From Oscillatoriophycideae cyanobacterium NC_groundwater_1537_Pr4_S-0.65um_50_18 (lineage in GTDB: Bacteria; Cyanobacteriota; Cyanobacteriia; Elainellales; Elainellaceae): a stretch of 64,000 nucleotides of DNA. The notes under the pieces were generated by a model, which searched no databases, had not been told where the DNA came from, and saw only the letters and a list, made by a program, of their open reading frames with translations. The stretch covers positions 62,001-126,000 of the forward strand of contig JACQYI010000033.1 of the NCBI GenBank assembly GCA_016208305.1, in the 5' to 3' direction. A program made the position numbers and the translations under genes. Every line of letters begins with the position of its first letter. Position 1 is the first letter of the stretch. Below, piece after piece: positions 1,833 to 8,754 of this stretch.

Positions 1833-2390
1833 ATGGTTTTAGATCCGCATGATTTCATGGCCAAGATGGCCGATCGAATTAGCTTCACTTCTGAAGACAG
1901 AGCGCTGCTCAAGTCCAGCGCAAGTTGGGGGGCTGAAATAGCGCCAGATATGGCCGATCGTTTCTATAGTTTTCTAGGTCGAGATGAAGAAATGAACGCA
2001 ATTTTGAATGCGTCCGAAGGGCGGATTCATCGCCTGCGAGAAACCTTTGTCGATTGGTTTGCAGAGATGTTTACGGGCATGGAGGATGACTGGGGAACCT
2101 CCTATGCCGATCGTCGCTGGCGCATTGGTTTAATTCATGTCCGAATTGGAATTGGGCCACAGCATGTCGTTCCAGCTATGGCAGTCGTCGTGCAGGCTGT
2201 AGGCGAGCGATTACGAGCCGAAGGGAAGTCTGCCGCACTGCAAGACTCACTGAGTAAAATTTGCATGATTGATTTGGCTTTCATCGAGCAAGCCTATGTT
2301 GAAGTCACGGCTGCCGCAGTGTTGAAAGAAACGGGGTGGACTGAAGGCTTATTCAGACGATTGATCACATCCGGCGCAGGCACAATGTGA
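1833..2390 (+). CDS. Protoglobin-family heme protein (globin sensor domain only)
   Basis: 185 aa forming a single globin-sensor/protoglobin fold, with no attached kinase or methyl-acceptor output domain. The diagnostic segment is IGLIHVRIGIGPQHV, which contains the predicted proximal heme-ligand histidine as in globin-coupled sensors (IGxxHxxIG pattern). Expected role is reversible binding of O2, NO or CO. The ATG at 1833 is chosen because AAAGGA lies about 8 nt upstream; a GTG 13 codons earlier lacks this. The gene is first in a same-strand series with Roadblock, V4R-like, GTPase and PATAN genes, so it may feed a gas or redox signal to that module; this link is inference from position. Confidence 0.8.
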   Translation: MVLDPHDFMAKMADRISFTSEDRALLKSSASWGAEIAPDMADRFYSFLGRDEEMNAILNASEGRIHRLRETFVDWFAEMFTGMEDDWGTSYADRRWRIGLIHVRIGIGPQHVVPAMAVVVQAVGERLRAEGKSAALQDSLSKICMIDLAFIEQAYVEVTAAAVLKETGWTEGLFRRLITSGAGTM

Positions 2391-2750
2391 TCACGATGCT
2401 GATTTCTCAGATGGCTCCTCACCTCACGGCACATTGTCCAAAGTTTGGCACCTCTTGTAACGCCACTTGTTTGCAGGCTCCTACATCTGCCATTAAGGTG
2501 CCCCTGAAGGAACGATTAGCAGAACCTTGCATGATTGCGGTTAGTCGCACACAGATAGAGTCTACCGGAGCTTTATGCGACCTGACGTTAGCTCTATTAG
2601 TTAACCCGATTTCTTAACCTCTTTACCCCTGTGCCGCATCCAGTCTAATAGGACACTTCATGCTGTTTTCAGGGCTAGTCGTTGAAAACAGCGTGAAAAC
2701 GGCTTTCCCAGACTTTAACTTCATCGCTCCCCACCTTAACGAGATTTCTC
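2391..2750. other. Spacer between globin and first Roadblock gene
   Basis: 360 bp with a 76-codon frame (2387-2617) that starts inside the globin stop region with GTG. Its composition is unlike a conserved protein and it has no ribosome-binding site, so it is not called. CTGTTTTC and GAAAACAG (2663-2670 and 2684-2691) form a perfect 8-bp stem followed by no clear T tract. Confidence 0.4.
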
Positions 2751-3122
2751 ATGGCTATTAACACTGAAAAATTGGGTATTGTTCTGCAGAATTTCGTCAC
2801 CGCAACCAGTGACGTTCAAGGTGCAGCACTCGTCACTCCAGATGGTTTACCGTTGGCAGCCTCCTTACCCGGAGGAATGGATGAAGAACGGGTGTCCGCT
2901 ATGTCTGCTGCCATGCTTTCTCTAGGTGAACGCATTGGCCAAGAACTGGCTCGTGGCGGGGTCGATCGCATCTATGTTGAAGGCGACAAAGGCTACGGAA
3001 TCTTGACGAGCTGTGGAGAGGATGCCGTCCTGCTGGTGCTGGCTGACCAGAAGGCAAAGCAGGGTGTATTGATGCTGGAAATTAAGCGCGCTGTGGCAGA
3101 AATCAAGCTGATCCTAAACTAG
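2751..3122 (+). CDS. Roadblock/LC7 domain protein, copy 1
   Basis: 123 aa, one Roadblock/LC7 domain (MglB-like fold), running from about residue 8 to the end (VTPDGLPLAASLPGG, then the helix MSAAMLSLGERIGQEL, then the strand GVDRIYVEGDKGYGIL). Roadblock proteins of this size usually dimerise and act as GAPs or scaffolds for small Ras-like GTPases such as the one at 4354. The encoded protein is identical, residue for residue, to the copy at 3861-4232. The nucleotide sequences differ at only seven positions, including the stop codon, all silent transitions. Its ribosome-binding site (ACGAGA) is weaker than that of copy 2. Close spacing on one strand suggests a shared operon. Confidence 0.88.
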   Translation: MAINTEKLGIVLQNFVTATSDVQGAALVTPDGLPLAASLPGGMDEERVSAMSAAMLSLGERIGQELARGGVDRIYVEGDKGYGILTSCGEDAVLLVLADQKAKQGVLMLEIKRAVAEIKLILN

Positions 3123-3280
3123 CCTGCCAGAGACAAGCCTGTGAACGATCGCCTTTCGTTACAGCCAAATGTTCATTGAACTTTTAGAGTTTATTGTTCA
3201 TATTCCAGCTACTCTCCCCTTTAAGGTATCTATTTCACCACTTTTGATTACTTGTCCTGAAGATTTTTGAGGTGTTTATT

Positions 3281-3772
3281 ATGTCTACCGTTGCCATTCC
3301 TGCTACAAACCAGTTACGTCCTGAGCTAGGTGATTTTAGCAGCATTATTTGCTTTAAAGCTTTGGTTGTTGGAACGGAAGAAGCCTTGGGTGAAAAGGCT
3401 GCTGCGATCGCGCTTATGGCAGCGGGTCGGACTCGGGGTAGGCAAGTGGCAGAGCAGCTAAATCTGACTGGAAAAGGGATTGCTTCTGAAGGCATTATCG
3501 CTCTGCTTCAAGCAGCATTGGGTAAAGAGGGCACTCGGCTCTGCATTGTAGAAAAAATTGTTGAAACTGAAGAGTCGATCACAGTTTACTGTCGAGAAAC
3601 AATTTGCTCTGCGGGTGAACCCGCAGGGTCGCCTCGGAAGCTGACCTTTACGTTAGGAGCCATTCAAGGGGTTATGGAGCAGGTGACAGGCAAGCGTCTG
3701 CGGGGTAAGCAGACCGAATCTGTTTTGCGGGGCAGCTCCTACGATGTCATCGAATTTGATGTGATTAGCTAG
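3281..3772 (+). CDS. V4R-like / hydrocarbon-binding-type protein
   Basis: 163 aa. The C-terminal half (FTLGAIQGVMEQVTGK, then E..VLRG..YDVIEF) follows the pattern of V4R (4-vinyl-reductase-type) small-ligand-binding domains, which often sit beside signalling proteins. The assignment rests on pattern recognition only. The ATG at 3281 is preferred over a GTG at 3272 because GAGG at 3269-3272 lies 8 nt upstream. The gene lies between two identical Roadblock genes, 158 bp after one and 88 bp before the other, and probably belongs to the same signalling module. The ligand is unknown. Confidence 0.65.
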   Translation: MSTVAIPATNQLRPELGDFSSIICFKALVVGTEEALGEKAAAIALMAAGRTRGRQVAEQLNLTGKGIASEGIIALLQAALGKEGTRLCIVEKIVETEESITVYCRETICSAGEPAGSPRKLTFTLGAIQGVMEQVTGKRLRGKQTESVLRGSSYDVIEFDVIS

Positions 3773-3860
3773 TATCTGAAGCGATCGCATCGGTTAGTTT
3801 CTTCAATTCATCATAAGTTCAATTTGTTTTGATTTAAAGTATTTGTGAGAGGATTTCACT

Positions 3861-4232
3861 ATGGCTATTAACACTGAAAAATTGGGTATTGTTCTGCAAA
3901 ATTTCGTCACCGCAACCAGTGACGTTCAAGGTGCAGCACTCGTCACTCCAGATGGCTTACCGTTGGCAGCCTCCTTACCCGGAGGAATGGATGAAGAACG
4001 GGTGTCCGCTATGTCTGCTGCCATGCTTTCTCTAGGTGAACGCATTGGTCAAGAACTGGCTCGTGGCGGGGTCGATCGCATCTATGTTGAAGGCGACAAA
4101 GGCTACGGAATCTTGACAAGCTGTGGAGAGGATGCCGTCCTGCTGGTGCTGGCTGACCAGAAGGCAAAGCAGGGTGTATTGATGTTGGAAATTAAGCGCG
4201 CTGTGGCAGAAATCAAGCTGATCCTGAACTAA
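3861..4232 (+). CDS. Roadblock/LC7 domain protein, copy 2
   Basis: 123 aa, identical in sequence to the protein at 2751-3122. Similarity between the two loci stops at the coding borders: the upstream and downstream flanks differ, and this copy has a better ribosome-binding site (GAGAGG about 9 nt before ATG). Expected to form MglB-like dimers that regulate the Ras-like GTPase encoded 121 bp downstream. Two copies may serve gene dosage or differential expression; gene conversion would explain the near-identity. Confidence 0.88.
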   Translation: MAINTEKLGIVLQNFVTATSDVQGAALVTPDGLPLAASLPGGMDEERVSAMSAAMLSLGERIGQELARGGVDRIYVEGDKGYGILTSCGEDAVLLVLADQKAKQGVLMLEIKRAVAEIKLILN

Positions 4233-4353
4233 GTCGGCTGATGACTTGTAAGAAGTGCGTAGGCTGTAGCAAAGTGCATGATGGGTGAAGCAAATAATTT
4301 GAACCTACTGTACTCCCTTTGCAAGCATTCACTATAACGACCCCGGAACATTT

Positions 4354-4893
4354 ATGGAAATCATGCGTTTGGTGGTGACTGGACCTGTCGGAGCCGGAAA
4401 ATCCACCTTTATTCGTTCTGTTAGTGAAATTGCTGTCGTTGATACAGACCGTCAGGCAACGGATGAAACCAGTTTAATTAAGCAAAAAACAACGGTGGCT
4501 TTCGATTTTGGGCGACTGGCGTTTGGGCCTGAAATGGCATTGCACCTCTATGGCACACCTGGACAGTCCCGATTCGATTTCATGTGGGACATCCTAATTC
4601 AAAAGGCTCACGCCTATATTTTGCTAGTCGCGGCTCACCGACCTCGCGAGTTCGTTGATGCTCGTCGAATTCGGGCATTTATGCGCCAGCGATCGCAAGT
4701 GCCCATGATTATCGGGTTGACCCATATGGATAGCCCAAACGCCTGGGATATTGAAAATACGGCGATCGCACTGGGCTATCTAAATGCAGATAAATGTCCG
4801 CCAATCATCACCGTTAACCCCAATGAGGCGGCATCTGTGGCTCAAGCCATTATTACTCTGGTGCAGCACTCAATGCAGAATTGCTTGGTTTAG
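4354..4893 (+). CDS. MglA-like small Ras-type GTPase
   Basis: 179 aa. Walker A/P-loop is TGPVGAGKSTFI near residues 9-20 and the G3 region reads LYGTPGQSRFDFMW, as in bacterial Ras-like/MglA proteins, which often have TPGQ instead of DxxGQ. The usual G4 motif NKxD is replaced by THMD in GLTHMDSP, so guanine specificity should be checked. Such GTPases pair with Roadblock GAP proteins to set cell polarity or motility direction (MglA/MglB in Myxococcus). Position after two Roadblock genes supports that pairing here. ATG 4354 is used; an in-frame ATG at 4363 is an alternative. Confidence 0.85.
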   Translation: MEIMRLVVTGPVGAGKSTFIRSVSEIAVVDTDRQATDETSLIKQKTTVAFDFGRLAFGPEMALHLYGTPGQSRFDFMWDILIQKAHAYILLVAAHRPREFVDARRIRAFMRQRSQVPMIIGLTHMDSPNAWDIENTAIALGYLNADKCPPIITVNPNEAASVAQAIITLVQHSMQNCLV

Positions 4894-4916
4894 CCACAAG
4901 TTTCGCTTTCTAGTCC

Positions 4917-4968
4917 AGATACCTAGTCTAGATACCTAGTTTAGATACCTAGTTTAGATACCTAGTTT
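4917..4968 (+). repeat. 4 x 13-bp tandem repeat
   Basis: Four head-to-tail copies of AGATACCTAGTTT (first copy ends TCT) between the GTPase stop and the DUF4388 gene. CCTAG makes each unit partly palindromic. It may be a simple slippage array within the operon spacer. Confidence 0.9.
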
Positions 4969-5036
4969 AGACGCTCATCAAATTCAGACTCATCTCCTAC
5001 AACAACTCAACGTTTAAAGCTGCAAGAAGGGACATT

Positions 5037-5897
5037 ATGGCAGTTACTGGCTATCTATCAGAATTTTCACTGGCCGAAATCTTTAGTTTCTTAGAGCAGG
5101 GTAACAAGACAGGCTTACTGACTATCTGTGTGCTGTCAGAAGACCAGTCCAAAAAACGTGAAAATCACTACGTCTGGTTCAATCAAGGACGCATTGTCGC
5201 AGCATCGAATCGTCTTGATCAGCATGGTTTGGCTAACATGATTGGCCAACGCGGTTGGCTAGGTGAACACACGGCGTTACGTGTGGCTCAAACTTGTGCT
5301 GCCACAATGCCCATCGGATTAATCCTCAAGACTCAAGGGTTATTGACGGTAGAGCAGCTCAAGCTGTTGTTCTATGCCCAAGTGATGCGGCAGGTCTGTG
5401 CTTTGTTTTCTCTAAAAGACGGCTGGTTTCAATTTGACGGCAAAGTGCCCCTACCTTTTGCAGAAATGACGGGCTTGAATGCGCCTGCAACAGAAGTGAC
5501 TCTGTCAGCATTGCGAGTATTGAAGGATTGGAGCGCCCTCGCCAGCAAGCTACCGGAGCCATCTTCGGCTATCAAGGGCATTATTGAAGGTAAGCCCCAA
5601 CAAAAACTTAACCAGTCGGAATGGCATCTCTGGGAGTTTGCTAATGGTACTTTGGCTTTGCATACAATCGCCAAACAACTGCAACTGCCCTTGGAGAAGG
5701 CGCAGCAGATCGCATTTCGTTTGGTAACGGCTGGCTTAGTGGAAGAGGTGCCGTTGGTCACAGTATCGTCTGTCGCTTCAAGGCCAGAGGCTACGGGACC
5801 AGAGATTGCGGTACCAGAGACAGTTCCTGCTGAAGCCACTGCTGTAAGCCACTCATTTCTGCATAACTTAGTAGGTTTTCTCAAGGGTAAGGTTTAA
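5037..5897 (+). CDS. DUF4388 (PATAN) domain protein
   Basis: 286 aa. The N-terminal ~110 residues match the DUF4388/PATAN pattern (GYLSEFSLAEIFSFLEQG, then KTGLLTI and VWFNQGRIVAASN). In cyanobacteria PATAN domains occur in phototaxis and type IV pilus response regulators, where they contact pilus or signalling partners. The C-terminal part is a helix-rich region with a winged-helix-like stretch (residues ~190-240) and a Pro/Ala/Val-rich linker. There is no receiver domain. A good ribosome-binding site (AAGGGA) precedes ATG 5037. Last gene of the globin-Roadblock-GTPase cluster, ended by a strong terminator at 5920-5954. Confidence 0.8.
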   Translation: MAVTGYLSEFSLAEIFSFLEQGNKTGLLTICVLSEDQSKKRENHYVWFNQGRIVAASNRLDQHGLANMIGQRGWLGEHTALRVAQTCAATMPIGLILKTQGLLTVEQLKLLFYAQVMRQVCALFSLKDGWFQFDGKVPLPFAEMTGLNAPATEVTLSALRVLKDWSALASKLPEPSSAIKGIIEGKPQQKLNQSEWHLWEFANGTLALHTIAKQLQLPLEKAQQIAFRLVTAGLVEEVPLVTVSSVASRPEATGPEIAVPETVPAEATAVSHSFLHNLVGFLKGKV

Positions 5898-5919: not shown

Positions 5920-5954
5920 GCTGCGAAACGCTCTCTCAGGGAGCGTTTCGCAGC
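5920..5954 (+). terminator. Rho-independent terminator of the Roadblock/GTPase cluster
   Basis: Perfect 14-bp inverted repeat (GCTGCGAAACGCTC, 5920-5933, with its complement at 5941-5954) and a 7-nt loop, 22 bp after the stop of the DUF4388 gene, with a TTTTTT run shortly after. Confidence 0.85.
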
Positions 5955-6659: not shown

Positions 6660-7118
6660 ATGTTTGCTCCGGTCAAAGAAATGCAAGATCGAACCATGAA
6701 TATCCTTTTAGTAGAGGATGACGAGGTTGATGTTATGAATGTGCAACGAGCATTTAAAAGAAATAACATCGCTAGTCCTCTTTACATTGCTTCTAACGGC
6801 ATAAAAGCTTTAGAGATGCTGCGGAGTAAAGGCAGTGGGGCGCTCCCTAGTAGCCGTCGCTTAATTTTGCTCGACCTTAATATGCCAAGGATGGGCGGCA
6901 TTGAGTTTTTGCATGCGTTGCGCGCCGATCCAGAGTTGCGAATGACTCCTGTTATTGTACTAACAACTTCTAACCAAGACCAAGATCGTGTAGAAGCGTA
7001 CAATCTCAATGTGGCAGGATATATTCTTAAGCCCGTTACTTTCTCGAAATTTGCAGACGTGATGGTCACCTTAAATAACTACTGGGCATTATGCGAGATG
7101 CCTTTTAACGACCATTAA
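6660..7118 (+). CDS. Single-domain response regulator, Rcp1-like
   Basis: 152 aa, one receiver domain with all key residues: acidic cluster in LLVEDDEVD, phospho-acceptor Asp in LLDLNMP, Thr in VLTTSN and Lys in ILKPV. The long insert after the second helix (SKGSGALPSSRR) is typical of Rcp1-type partners of cyanobacterial phytochromes and related kinases. It probably carries phosphate from a kinase in trans; the kinase is not evident, although the REC-kinase protein at 7612 is next on the same strand. ATG 6660 is used; ATGs at 6681 and 6696 are also possible and would still keep the receiver whole. Confidence 0.88.
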   Translation: MFAPVKEMQDRTMNILLVEDDEVDVMNVQRAFKRNNIASPLYIASNGIKALEMLRSKGSGALPSSRRLILLDLNMPRMGGIEFLHALRADPELRMTPVIVLTTSNQDQDRVEAYNLNVAGYILKPVTFSKFADVMVTLNNYWALCEMPFNDH

Positions 7119-7611
7119 GTTCGACCATTAAGTTAATAGTTTTTTATAAATCTTAAAAGCGATTGTAGTTTTGTAGGGATATCCCCAATTACCAAGACTG
7201 AGGTTCTTGAGAAAATAAATCAAGTACAGGTATTTAACTCATAAAGAGAACGTTTGTACAAGATAGTTAAAACTGGACATAGTATATTCAAGTTTTTCTG
7301 AACCAATCAGAACAAAAAGTCAAAAGGTGGGTAGATCAAGGTTTTGCACAGATTGCCTGTTCGATTTTGATCAGTCGATCGAGGGCGATTATGCGTTGAT
7401 TACCGTCATTTTAAGCGTGAAAATTTTACCTTTTTTAAGGTGACAAGAGTATGGAGCGAAAGCATTTGGGCTGTAGTAATCACAGGTTTGAAAGAACACA
7501 GGTTTGAAAGAATACAGGTTTGAAAGAATACAAAGCATGAAGGCCGCATTTAGCTTGACGACTGTGTTGGGAGGGACGGCATTTTCAGTTTTCTAATTTG
7601 CGAGTAACGAT
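7119..7611. other. Intergenic region with 3 x 16-bp tandem repeat
   Basis: About 490 bp, A+T-rich, with no gene seen. Three tandem copies of ACAGGTTTGAAAGAAT (first copy ends in C) occupy 7482-7529, about 80 bp before the next start codon. Confidence 0.6.
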
Positions 7612-8754
7612 ATGGATGAAATTCTCAAGATTTTAATTGTTGATGATGATGAAGTCGATCGCATGGCATTGCGTCGTCTTCTCAAAATGGCGGGTGTGCA
7701 AATAGAAGCAGTCGAAGCCCACGATTGCGGAGTAGCGATCGCTGCCCTTAAAGAGCAACCTTTTGACTGCGCATTTGTTGACTACCGTTTGCCCGATATG
7801 GATGGACTAGAGCTAGTGCAGCTCTTGCGAGGAGACAACATCAAAATCCCGCTGATCATTCTTACGGGGCAAGGTGACGAGCAGATTGCGGTAGAGCTGA
7901 TGAAAGCGGGCGCATCGGACTATATTGCTAAGGGACGACTCTCGCCTGAGGCTTTGGCTCAGGTATTACGCAATGCCGTTCGCGTTTATCAAGCGGAAAT
8001 GCTGGCCGCCTCAGCCGAACGCCAAAAAGAGCAGTTAGCTCGTCAGCGGGAAGATTTTGTGTCTCGCTTGACCCACGACCTGCGCACGCCTCTGGTGGCT
8101 GCCGATCGAACGCTCAATTTATTCCAAGATGGAGCATTTGGCGATCTGACTTCAGACATGCAGGACATCTTGACTGTGATGATTCGCAGCAACAAGAATT
8201 TACTCCATATGGTCAACACCATCTTGGAAGTTTATCGTCACGATGCAGGGCGCAAAACAATGTCTTTTGAGCCTTGTGAATTGCGCAATATGATCGAAGA
8301 GGTGATAGAAGAACTTCGACCCCTGATTCAGGAGCAAGATTTGAAAATCTTTGTGGATTTCCCCGCTCAGGCTAAGGGGGTTATCGCTGCTGATTGCATG
8401 GAAATTCGTCGATTGCTCGTTAACTTGATAGGCAATGCCATTAAGTTTACCGATCACGGCTCGATTACCGTTCGTCTGAGTGAAGTTGAAGCAACAGGAG
8501 CAGCCGAGCCGTCAATGAAATCAGCCGTTATTGAAGTGGAGGACACAGGAGCAGGAATTTCTCCAGAAGACCAGGCGACCTTATTCGATCGCTTCCGTCA
8601 AGGCAACCACAAGCGATCGGGGAGTGGCTTGGGCATGTATTTGTCCCGCAGGATCGTAGAAGCGCACAACGGTACTATTGCAGTGAAGTCAGCTTTGGGG
8701 CAAGGCAGCCGCTTTACGGTACGATTGCCTAGTAGCAGATGCGCTACAACGTAG
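7612..8754 (+). CDS. Response regulator-histidine kinase hybrid (REC-HisKA-HATPase)
   Basis: 380 aa, soluble. Receiver at residues ~5-125 (LIVDDDEVD, phospho-Asp in FVDYRLPDMDG, Lys in YIAKG), a short coiled coil, HisKA near 145-215 with the phospho-histidine in LTHDLRTPL, and HATPase to the C-terminus (NLIGNAIKFTDHG, VEDTGAGIS, GSGLGMYLSRRIVEAHNG). An N-terminal receiver controlling a kinase core is common in cyanobacteria and lets one phosphorelay feed another. It follows the Rcp1-like regulator on the same strand, with a 490-bp gap, so co-transcription is uncertain. Confidence 0.88.
   Translation: MDEILKILIVDDDEVDRMALRRLLKMAGVQIEAVEAHDCGVAIAALKEQPFDCAFVDYRLPDMDGLELVQLLRGDNIKIPLIILTGQGDEQIAVELMKAGASDYIAKGRLSPEALAQVLRNAVRVYQAEMLAASAERQKEQLARQREDFVSRLTHDLRTPLVAADRTLNLFQDGAFGDLTSDMQDILTVMIRSNKNLLHMVNTILEVYRHDAGRKTMSFEPCELRNMIEEVIEELRPLIQEQDLKIFVDFPAQAKGVIAADCMEIRRLLVNLIGNAIKFTDHGSITVRLSEVEATGAAEPSMKSAVIEVEDTGAGISPEDQATLFDRFRQGNHKRSGSGLGMYLSRRIVEAHNGTIAVKSALGQGSRFTVRLPSSRCATT

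Follow-up and report, generated by a model that had tools for sequence, protein, structure and literature searches.

Most of what is known of bacterial Ras-like GTPase and Roadblock switches concerns polarity devices that receive their input from response regulators. The MglA/MglB pair of Myxococcus and Thermus (Group 1) consists of a small single-domain GTPase encoded beside a Roadblock protein. The linkage of MglA and MglB to a PATAN protein is also known (Wuichet & Sogaard-Andersen, 2014, citing Makarova et al., 2006; PMC4316618). HGbRL of Methylacidiphilum is a fusion of globin and Roadblock that was said to be unique to that genus (PMC4476040), therefore globin and Roadblock have already been joined by nature elsewhere. 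In this work, we describe a module of six genes from a 64,000-nucleotide stretch of DNA (the window) of the filamentous Oscillatoriophycideae cyanobacterium NC_groundwater_1537_Pr4_S-0.65um_50_18. The module (window 1833-5897) consists of plus strand genes for a protoglobin, a Roadblock protein, a V4R-fold protein, a second Roadblock protein, an MglA-like GTPase, and a DUF4388/PATAN protein. The coordinates and families given for these genes in a preliminary description of this DNA agree with the open reading frames, the Pfam matches, and the fold of the V4R protein.

We consider it evenly balanced whether all six genes belong to a single signalling unit, with an MglA-type GTPase as the switch, exchangeable sensory proteins as inputs, and the PATAN protein as output. 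The Roadblock-GTPase-PATAN genes are the conserved core of the module. The genes for protoglobin, V4R-fold protein, and sometimes bacteriohemerythrin are inserted at either end of this core. Thermus and Deinococcus plasmids arrange the same parts in other orders. Globin, V4R, or hemerythrin inputs to MglA-MglB-PATAN were not found described in a literature search that was thin on subscription journals. The preliminary description knew of no named system of this composition; within this search it holds for those inputs, which appear to be the new part, and does not hold for the MglA-MglB-PATAN linkage, which is the known part.

Conservation of the module in two phyla

The search seeded from the GTPase gave 80 cyanobacterial loci, or 82 loci when the two loci of the genome under study are counted. 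PATAN genes are present at 79 of these 82 loci, Roadblock genes at 76, protoglobin genes at 43, and V4R genes at 35. The commonest gene orders are protoglobin-Roadblock-GTPase-PATAN (23 loci), V4R-Roadblock-GTPase-PATAN (18 loci), Roadblock-GTPase-PATAN (seven loci), and V4R-Roadblock-GTPase-PATAN-protoglobin (six loci). The globin gene lies 5' of the core in Leptolyngbya-like groups and 3' of it in Nostocales. The presence of globin needs about 10 changes on the GTPase tree and that of V4R needs about 15.

An evenly drawn sample of 116 cyanobacterial genomes was added because the seeded search started from the GTPase. High-scoring GTPases were identified in 13 of the 116 genomes, which are spread over eight families of the sample, and close Roadblock homologs (E<1e-40) were identified in exactly those 13. 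The protoglobin gene lies within about 2.2 kb of the GTPase gene in 12 of the 13 genomes, the exception being genome G085. This overlap has P = 2.4e-14 assuming independent genomes, which these are not. A divergent protoglobin (31% identity) occupies the usual globin slot in genome G048. V4R is tied less strictly to the module, being an orphan in genome G056 and lying away from the module in genome G068.

The genome that contains the window has just three Roadblock genes and two such GTPase genes, all of which belong to two modules, the one in the window and one on contig C72. The C72 module (L004, G000:C72, 4479-7330, minus strand) has the order V4R-Roadblock-GTPase-PATAN and no globin, and its GTPase groups with those of globin-less modules. 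It lies on an 8.6-kb contig beside transposase-like genes and a reverse transcriptase of the group II intron type.

The Deinococcota side of the comparison rests on plasmid records. The plasmids of Thermus thermophilus and T. oshimai carry the GTPase (46% identity) with a DUF4388 gene and a protoglobin gene alongside. The annotated order in T. thermophilus is DUF4388-GTPase-Roadblock-protoglobin, where the first three genes abut or share a few bases, and 15 nt separate the Roadblock gene from the globin gene. The cluster of T. brockianus pTB1 (L139, 4348-9317) contains three protoglobin-family genes that are followed by EAL and HD-GYP proteins, thus a c-di-GMP output is possible for this module, which also adjoins an IclR-type gene. 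Deinococcus gobiensis exhibits GTPase-Roadblock-V4R, where the V4R profile identifies the protein annotated as 'hypothetical protein' (1.7e-60). Each of the four plasmid records that have the Thermus globin, and each of the eight that have V4R (Deinococcus), carries the GTPase gene within about 1-2 kb of it.

The preliminary description had offered conserved co-occurrence in cyanobacteria as its check, and the Roadblock-GTPase-PATAN core recurs in nearly all seeded loci. Gene order conserved nowhere else, together with the lack of a shared transcript, was to count against it; the order recurs in both Cyanobacteriota and Deinococcota.

Components of the module

The stand-alone protoglobin (185 aa; 1833..2390, plus strand) matches Pfam PF11563 at 2.4e-21, with 76.8 bits against a cut-off of 25, as had been claimed. 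Among solved structures, the closest relative is Tlr1989 (PDB 8h17), with 70% identity and E 4.8e-85. Globin-coupled sensors, among them HemAT and the histidine kinase 5ohe, come next after Tlr1989 in the PDB matches. Y45 and H102 are unchanged in all 44 module globins and align with Y45 and H99 of 5ohe, which we take to be its distal and proximal heme residues, respectively. The module globin is therefore predicted to bind heme with H102 as the proximal residue and Y45 as the distal one. In genome G083, the globin of the module has the same sequence as Tlr1989 of Thermosynechococcus (100% identity). Protoglobins of the module type are also found alone, far from modules, at loci L091, L092, L101, and L103; three of these loci have an apparent acetolactate-synthase gene alongside, as judged by eye.

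A bacteriohemerythrin gene was identified near the PATAN gene in about 15 genomes. This gene lies 3' of PATAN in the Thermosynechococcus cluster, in G079, and in most Nodosilinea-type loci, and 5' in L082. The listing of tlr1993 as a hemerythrin (PMC4919030) fits the hemerythrin at the end of the Thermosynechococcus cluster. L130:8544-8951 and L015:3940-4644 are two of the loci, with about 13 others. Every aligned copy of the module-linked hemerythrins has Asn instead of the first His in the H-x3-H iron-ligand pair of the C-helix, a replacement that could alter O2 binding.

The V4R-fold protein (163 aa; 3281..3772, plus strand) has no significant Pfam match, and no V4R match was found at E up to 1. 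Its AlphaFold model (pLDDT 84.8) was built from 27 relatives. The model matches the V4R domain of phenol-sensing MopR (Z 16.4 over 140 residues), mouse Bet3 (Z 14.5), and the V4R protein MJ1460 (Z 14.0). The protein as modelled is thus of the V4R/TRAPP-Bet3 fold, and the V4R-type call of the preliminary description is right at the fold level, though without a sequence match to the V4R profile. A second set in genome G066 (L157, G066:C2:744000-756000) consists of PATAN, V4R, and Roadblock genes without a GTPase gene, followed by a PATAN-REC-like gene. This set hints that V4R and Roadblock may act together directly.

The two Roadblock/LC7 (MglB-like) genes of the window (2751..3122 and 3861..4232, both plus strand; both PF03259 9.4e-19) flank the V4R gene. 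Both encode an identical 123-aa protein and exhibit seven silent base differences, therefore they are a recent duplicate or a gene-converted pair. The claim of two MglB-like Roadblock proteins stands for the two genes and not for two different proteins. Two distinct MglB paralogues, as in the 1:2 systems of Group 3, were rejected since both copies are the same protein. The tandem of Roadblock genes is absent from all other seeded loci. The Roadblock PDG motif is present in all 76 proteins and contains the Asp-Gly of Groups 2-5.

The small GTPase (179 aa; 4354..4893, plus strand) was assigned by Pfam P-loop GTPase matches and by its motifs, which are GPVGAGKS in G1, TT in G2 (TTVAFDFG), YGTPGQ in G3, and T-H-x-D in G4. 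These motifs are conserved among 83 GTPases, with GTPG in 83, the P-loop Lys in 82, and the His after the G4 Thr in 83. The P-loop, the GTPGQ of G3, and the Roadblock gene coupled to it in 13 of the 13 GTPase genomes place it in the MglA family. According to the rules of Wuichet & Sogaard-Andersen, Group 1 MglA has an Arg beside the G2 Thr and TVPGQ in G3 (PMC4316618). The G2 and G3 motifs of the window GTPase exclude Group 1, to which MglA of gliding Myxococcus belongs, and fit Groups 2-5. Group 5 is the group that was reported in Cyanobacteria plus Deinococcus/Thermus (PMC4316618). The fit to Group 5 is incomplete because the consensus of G4 in that paper is [NT]KxD, whereas T-H-x-D is found here. 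The MglA-like GTPase of the preliminary description is thus kept as a member of the MglA family and not as a Group 1 MglA of the gliding type. A close relative of the window GTPase was not found by the PDB sequence search, nor was one of the PATAN protein.

The DUF4388/PATAN protein (286 aa; 5037..5897, plus strand) matches PF14332 at 9.2e-27, with 93.9 bits against a cut-off of 25, as the preliminary description had it. Its AlphaFold model (pLDDT 86.6) consists of the PATAN domain, a winged-helix-like region at residues 193-238, a disordered linker, and a C-terminal helix with a strongly conserved SFLxNLVGFL motif. The Foldseek search with this model gave no match at E <0.03, and weak winged-helix matches to GATOR1 NPRL-like chains were not used. 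A helical insertion of the PATAN protein (window 5221-5400, residues ~62-121) resembles by eye the tandem MshEN c-di-GMP-binding motifs (GxxLxxxGxxxxxxLxxLxxxQ).

At L043, L067, L072, and L074, the module is directly followed on its own strand by genes for PATAN-REC, CheY, CheW, and MCP, and Pfam verified these domains for L074. In G085, the V4R-Roadblock-GTPase-PATAN genes run straight into genes for a PATAN-REC-like protein, CheY, and CheW, with a large protein encoded in the place of the MCP. In Synechocystis, PixE and other PATAN response regulators reportedly act on PilB1, the pilus motor (cited through PMC9090330 and PMC7690835).

The PATAN gene of the window is followed by a likely terminator hairpin (5920..5954, plus strand) with a 16-bp stem and a loop of three. 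The hairpin was overlooked by the terminator scan and was confirmed by folding (-29.8 kcal/mol, z -6.18). The strong terminator of the preliminary description agrees with this strong hairpin, although the T-run is delayed and begins about 7 nt past the stem. The promoter scan of the window gave sites that are no more frequent than in shuffles, and no NtcA site (GTAN8TAC) was found 5' of the window globin gene. Tandem repeats of about 14 bases (tagatacctagttt) were observed between the GTPase and PATAN genes (4915-4975). The module sits in a two-component island where several hybrid kinases and single-domain response regulators are found on both sides (L003 1-8759; window 6660-8754).

Proposed mechanism and rival explanations

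In the proposed mechanism, the protoglobin would bind O2, possibly NO or CO, on the heme that is held by H102 on the proximal and Y45 on the distal side. The ligand state of the globin or of the V4R protein (or hemerythrin) would alter the Roadblock dimer, which would serve as a co-GAP or a scaffold for the GTPase. The GTP/GDP state would change how the GTPase engages the PATAN protein. The PATAN protein, via its PATAN domain and C-terminal helix, would then act on the type IV pilus motor or on PATAN-REC regulators. Movement on surfaces would thereby come under redox-dependent or aerotaxis-like control. We infer gas sensing, GTPase control, and pilus output alike; the first two steps of this chain are likelier than the last, and the output is the least certain. 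Type IV pili and taxis are the best guess for the output because PATAN-REC/CheY/CheW operons adjoin modules. The reading of the preliminary description is partly supported. The module, and the idea of ligand-sensing inputs to an MglA/MglB-like switch, have good support in the two-phylum synteny, and for control by a gas or ligand the invariant heme-pocket residues, the V4R fold, and the recurrent hemerythrin gene speak. Its claim of polarity or pilus control has indirect support from the five loci that adjoin PATAN-REC/CheY/CheW (mostly with MCP) and from the cited action of PATAN regulators on PilB1; the GTPase is not the Group 1 MglA of gliding Myxococcus.

Several observations weigh against this mechanism. 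The globin is missing from about half of the seeded loci; since many modules are without it, an input of gas must be optional. Some genomes have additional globins of the module type that lie by themselves at other places. Most globin-bearing modules do not lie beside genes for pili or chemotaxis. With gaps of 88-360 bp separating its genes, the window module may not be a single transcript. The winged-helix-like part of the PATAN protein makes a transcriptional output possible.

This last point leads to an explanation that keeps the same sensor-GTPase unit and replaces its output, with the PATAN winged helix binding DNA and the GTPase state controlling expression. Transcription was proposed as the output of Group 3 systems with REC-like and winged-helix partners (Wuichet & Sogaard-Andersen; PMC4316618), and the IclR-type gene beside the T. 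brockianus module fits this output. However, the net charge of the winged-helix-like region has a median of -1 in the family (range -5 to +1); such a slightly acidic region is unusual for DNA binding and speaks against it, and several loci adjoin a chemotaxis operon instead. We regard a transcriptional output as improbable. A switch for cell polarity, filament patterning, or c-di-GMP that is unrelated to pili, for example PatA-type patterning, ranks below it. PATAN is named after PatA of heterocyst patterning, and the EAL and HD-GYP proteins of T. brockianus would suit c-di-GMP, but the module is also present in Thermus and in Thermosynechococcus, which is unicellular and non-heterocystous.

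The globin and hemerythrin could also be protective scavengers or stores of O2 or NO, so that their linkage to the GTPase would reflect co-expression and not signalling. Gas binding and detoxification are common for globins and hemerythrins, and the lone globins agree with such a role. Against it stand the strict adjacency in two phyla, the Asn in all copies of the linked hemerythrins, and the V4R protein, a sensor fold that can take the same place, and this is the least probable of the three. Silent-only differences between the Roadblock genes could hint at collapsed repeats. Chance neighbours or an assembly artefact are nevertheless of negligible probability, as the order is found again in independent genomes, both finished and draft, and in annotated plasmids; chance neighbours were rejected because the synteny is conserved across cyanobacteria and Deinococcota.

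Returning to the sensor-GTPase unit with pilus output, the Roadblock/GTPase switches here appear wired to gas-binding and small-molecule-binding proteins as separate, exchangeable subunits. To our knowledge, which does not come from an exhaustive search, no O2 receptor has been assigned for the movement of cyanobacteria in gradients. Malin & Walsby described such movement along gradients of O2 and CO2 in 1985 (cited through PMC7690835). The module is a concrete candidate for oxygen steering by gliding cyanobacteria. A more ambitious form of this idea is tentative and, in our judgement, less likely than not: a heme globin that acts in trans on Roadblock/GTPase would be the sensor of O2 (or NO) that has been missing for the steering of pilus-driven movement in cyanobacteria, and the module would be a general plug-in switch where protoglobin, V4R, and hemerythrin are interchangeable across Cyanobacteriota and Deinococcota. 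Thermosynechococcus, which is related to T. vulcanus, a model of phototaxis, has both the module and the solved globin 8H17, therefore the idea is open to direct test.

Comparison with described systems

Tlr1989 is the same globin as that of the G083 module. It was solved as an isolated protein, and we found no paper in the literature searched that ties it to the GTPase module. HGbRL is similar to the module in coupling a heme globin to Roadblock, but it is a fusion with another type of globin and has neither V4R nor PATAN. The actinobacterial conservon (CvnA-D) is, like the module, a signalling operon with Roadblock and an MglA-like GTPase. Membership in the conservons was rejected since no CvnC DUF742 or CvnA histidine kinase was identified by Pfam among the six proteins; the module has globin, V4R, and PATAN in their stead. 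The Pix/Hmp PATAN-REC chemotaxis systems have the PATAN output domain in common with the module and adjoin it directly in five loci; they have their own input of MCP and CheA and no GTPase.

The module is similar to MglA Group 5 (PMC4316618) in the range of cyanobacteria and Deinococcus/Thermus, the GTPGQ motif, the Roadblock Asp-Gly, and the occasional PATAN neighbours. The G4 motifs differ, and the Group 5 paper does not mention a globin. Compared with Group 1 MglA/MglB, with which a link to motility is possible, the module has TT instead of RT and thus no intrinsic Arg finger, GTPGQ instead of TVPGQ, and a His in G4. The module also adds globin, V4R, and hemerythrin inputs and a dedicated PATAN partner to the parts of Group 1 MglA/MglB.

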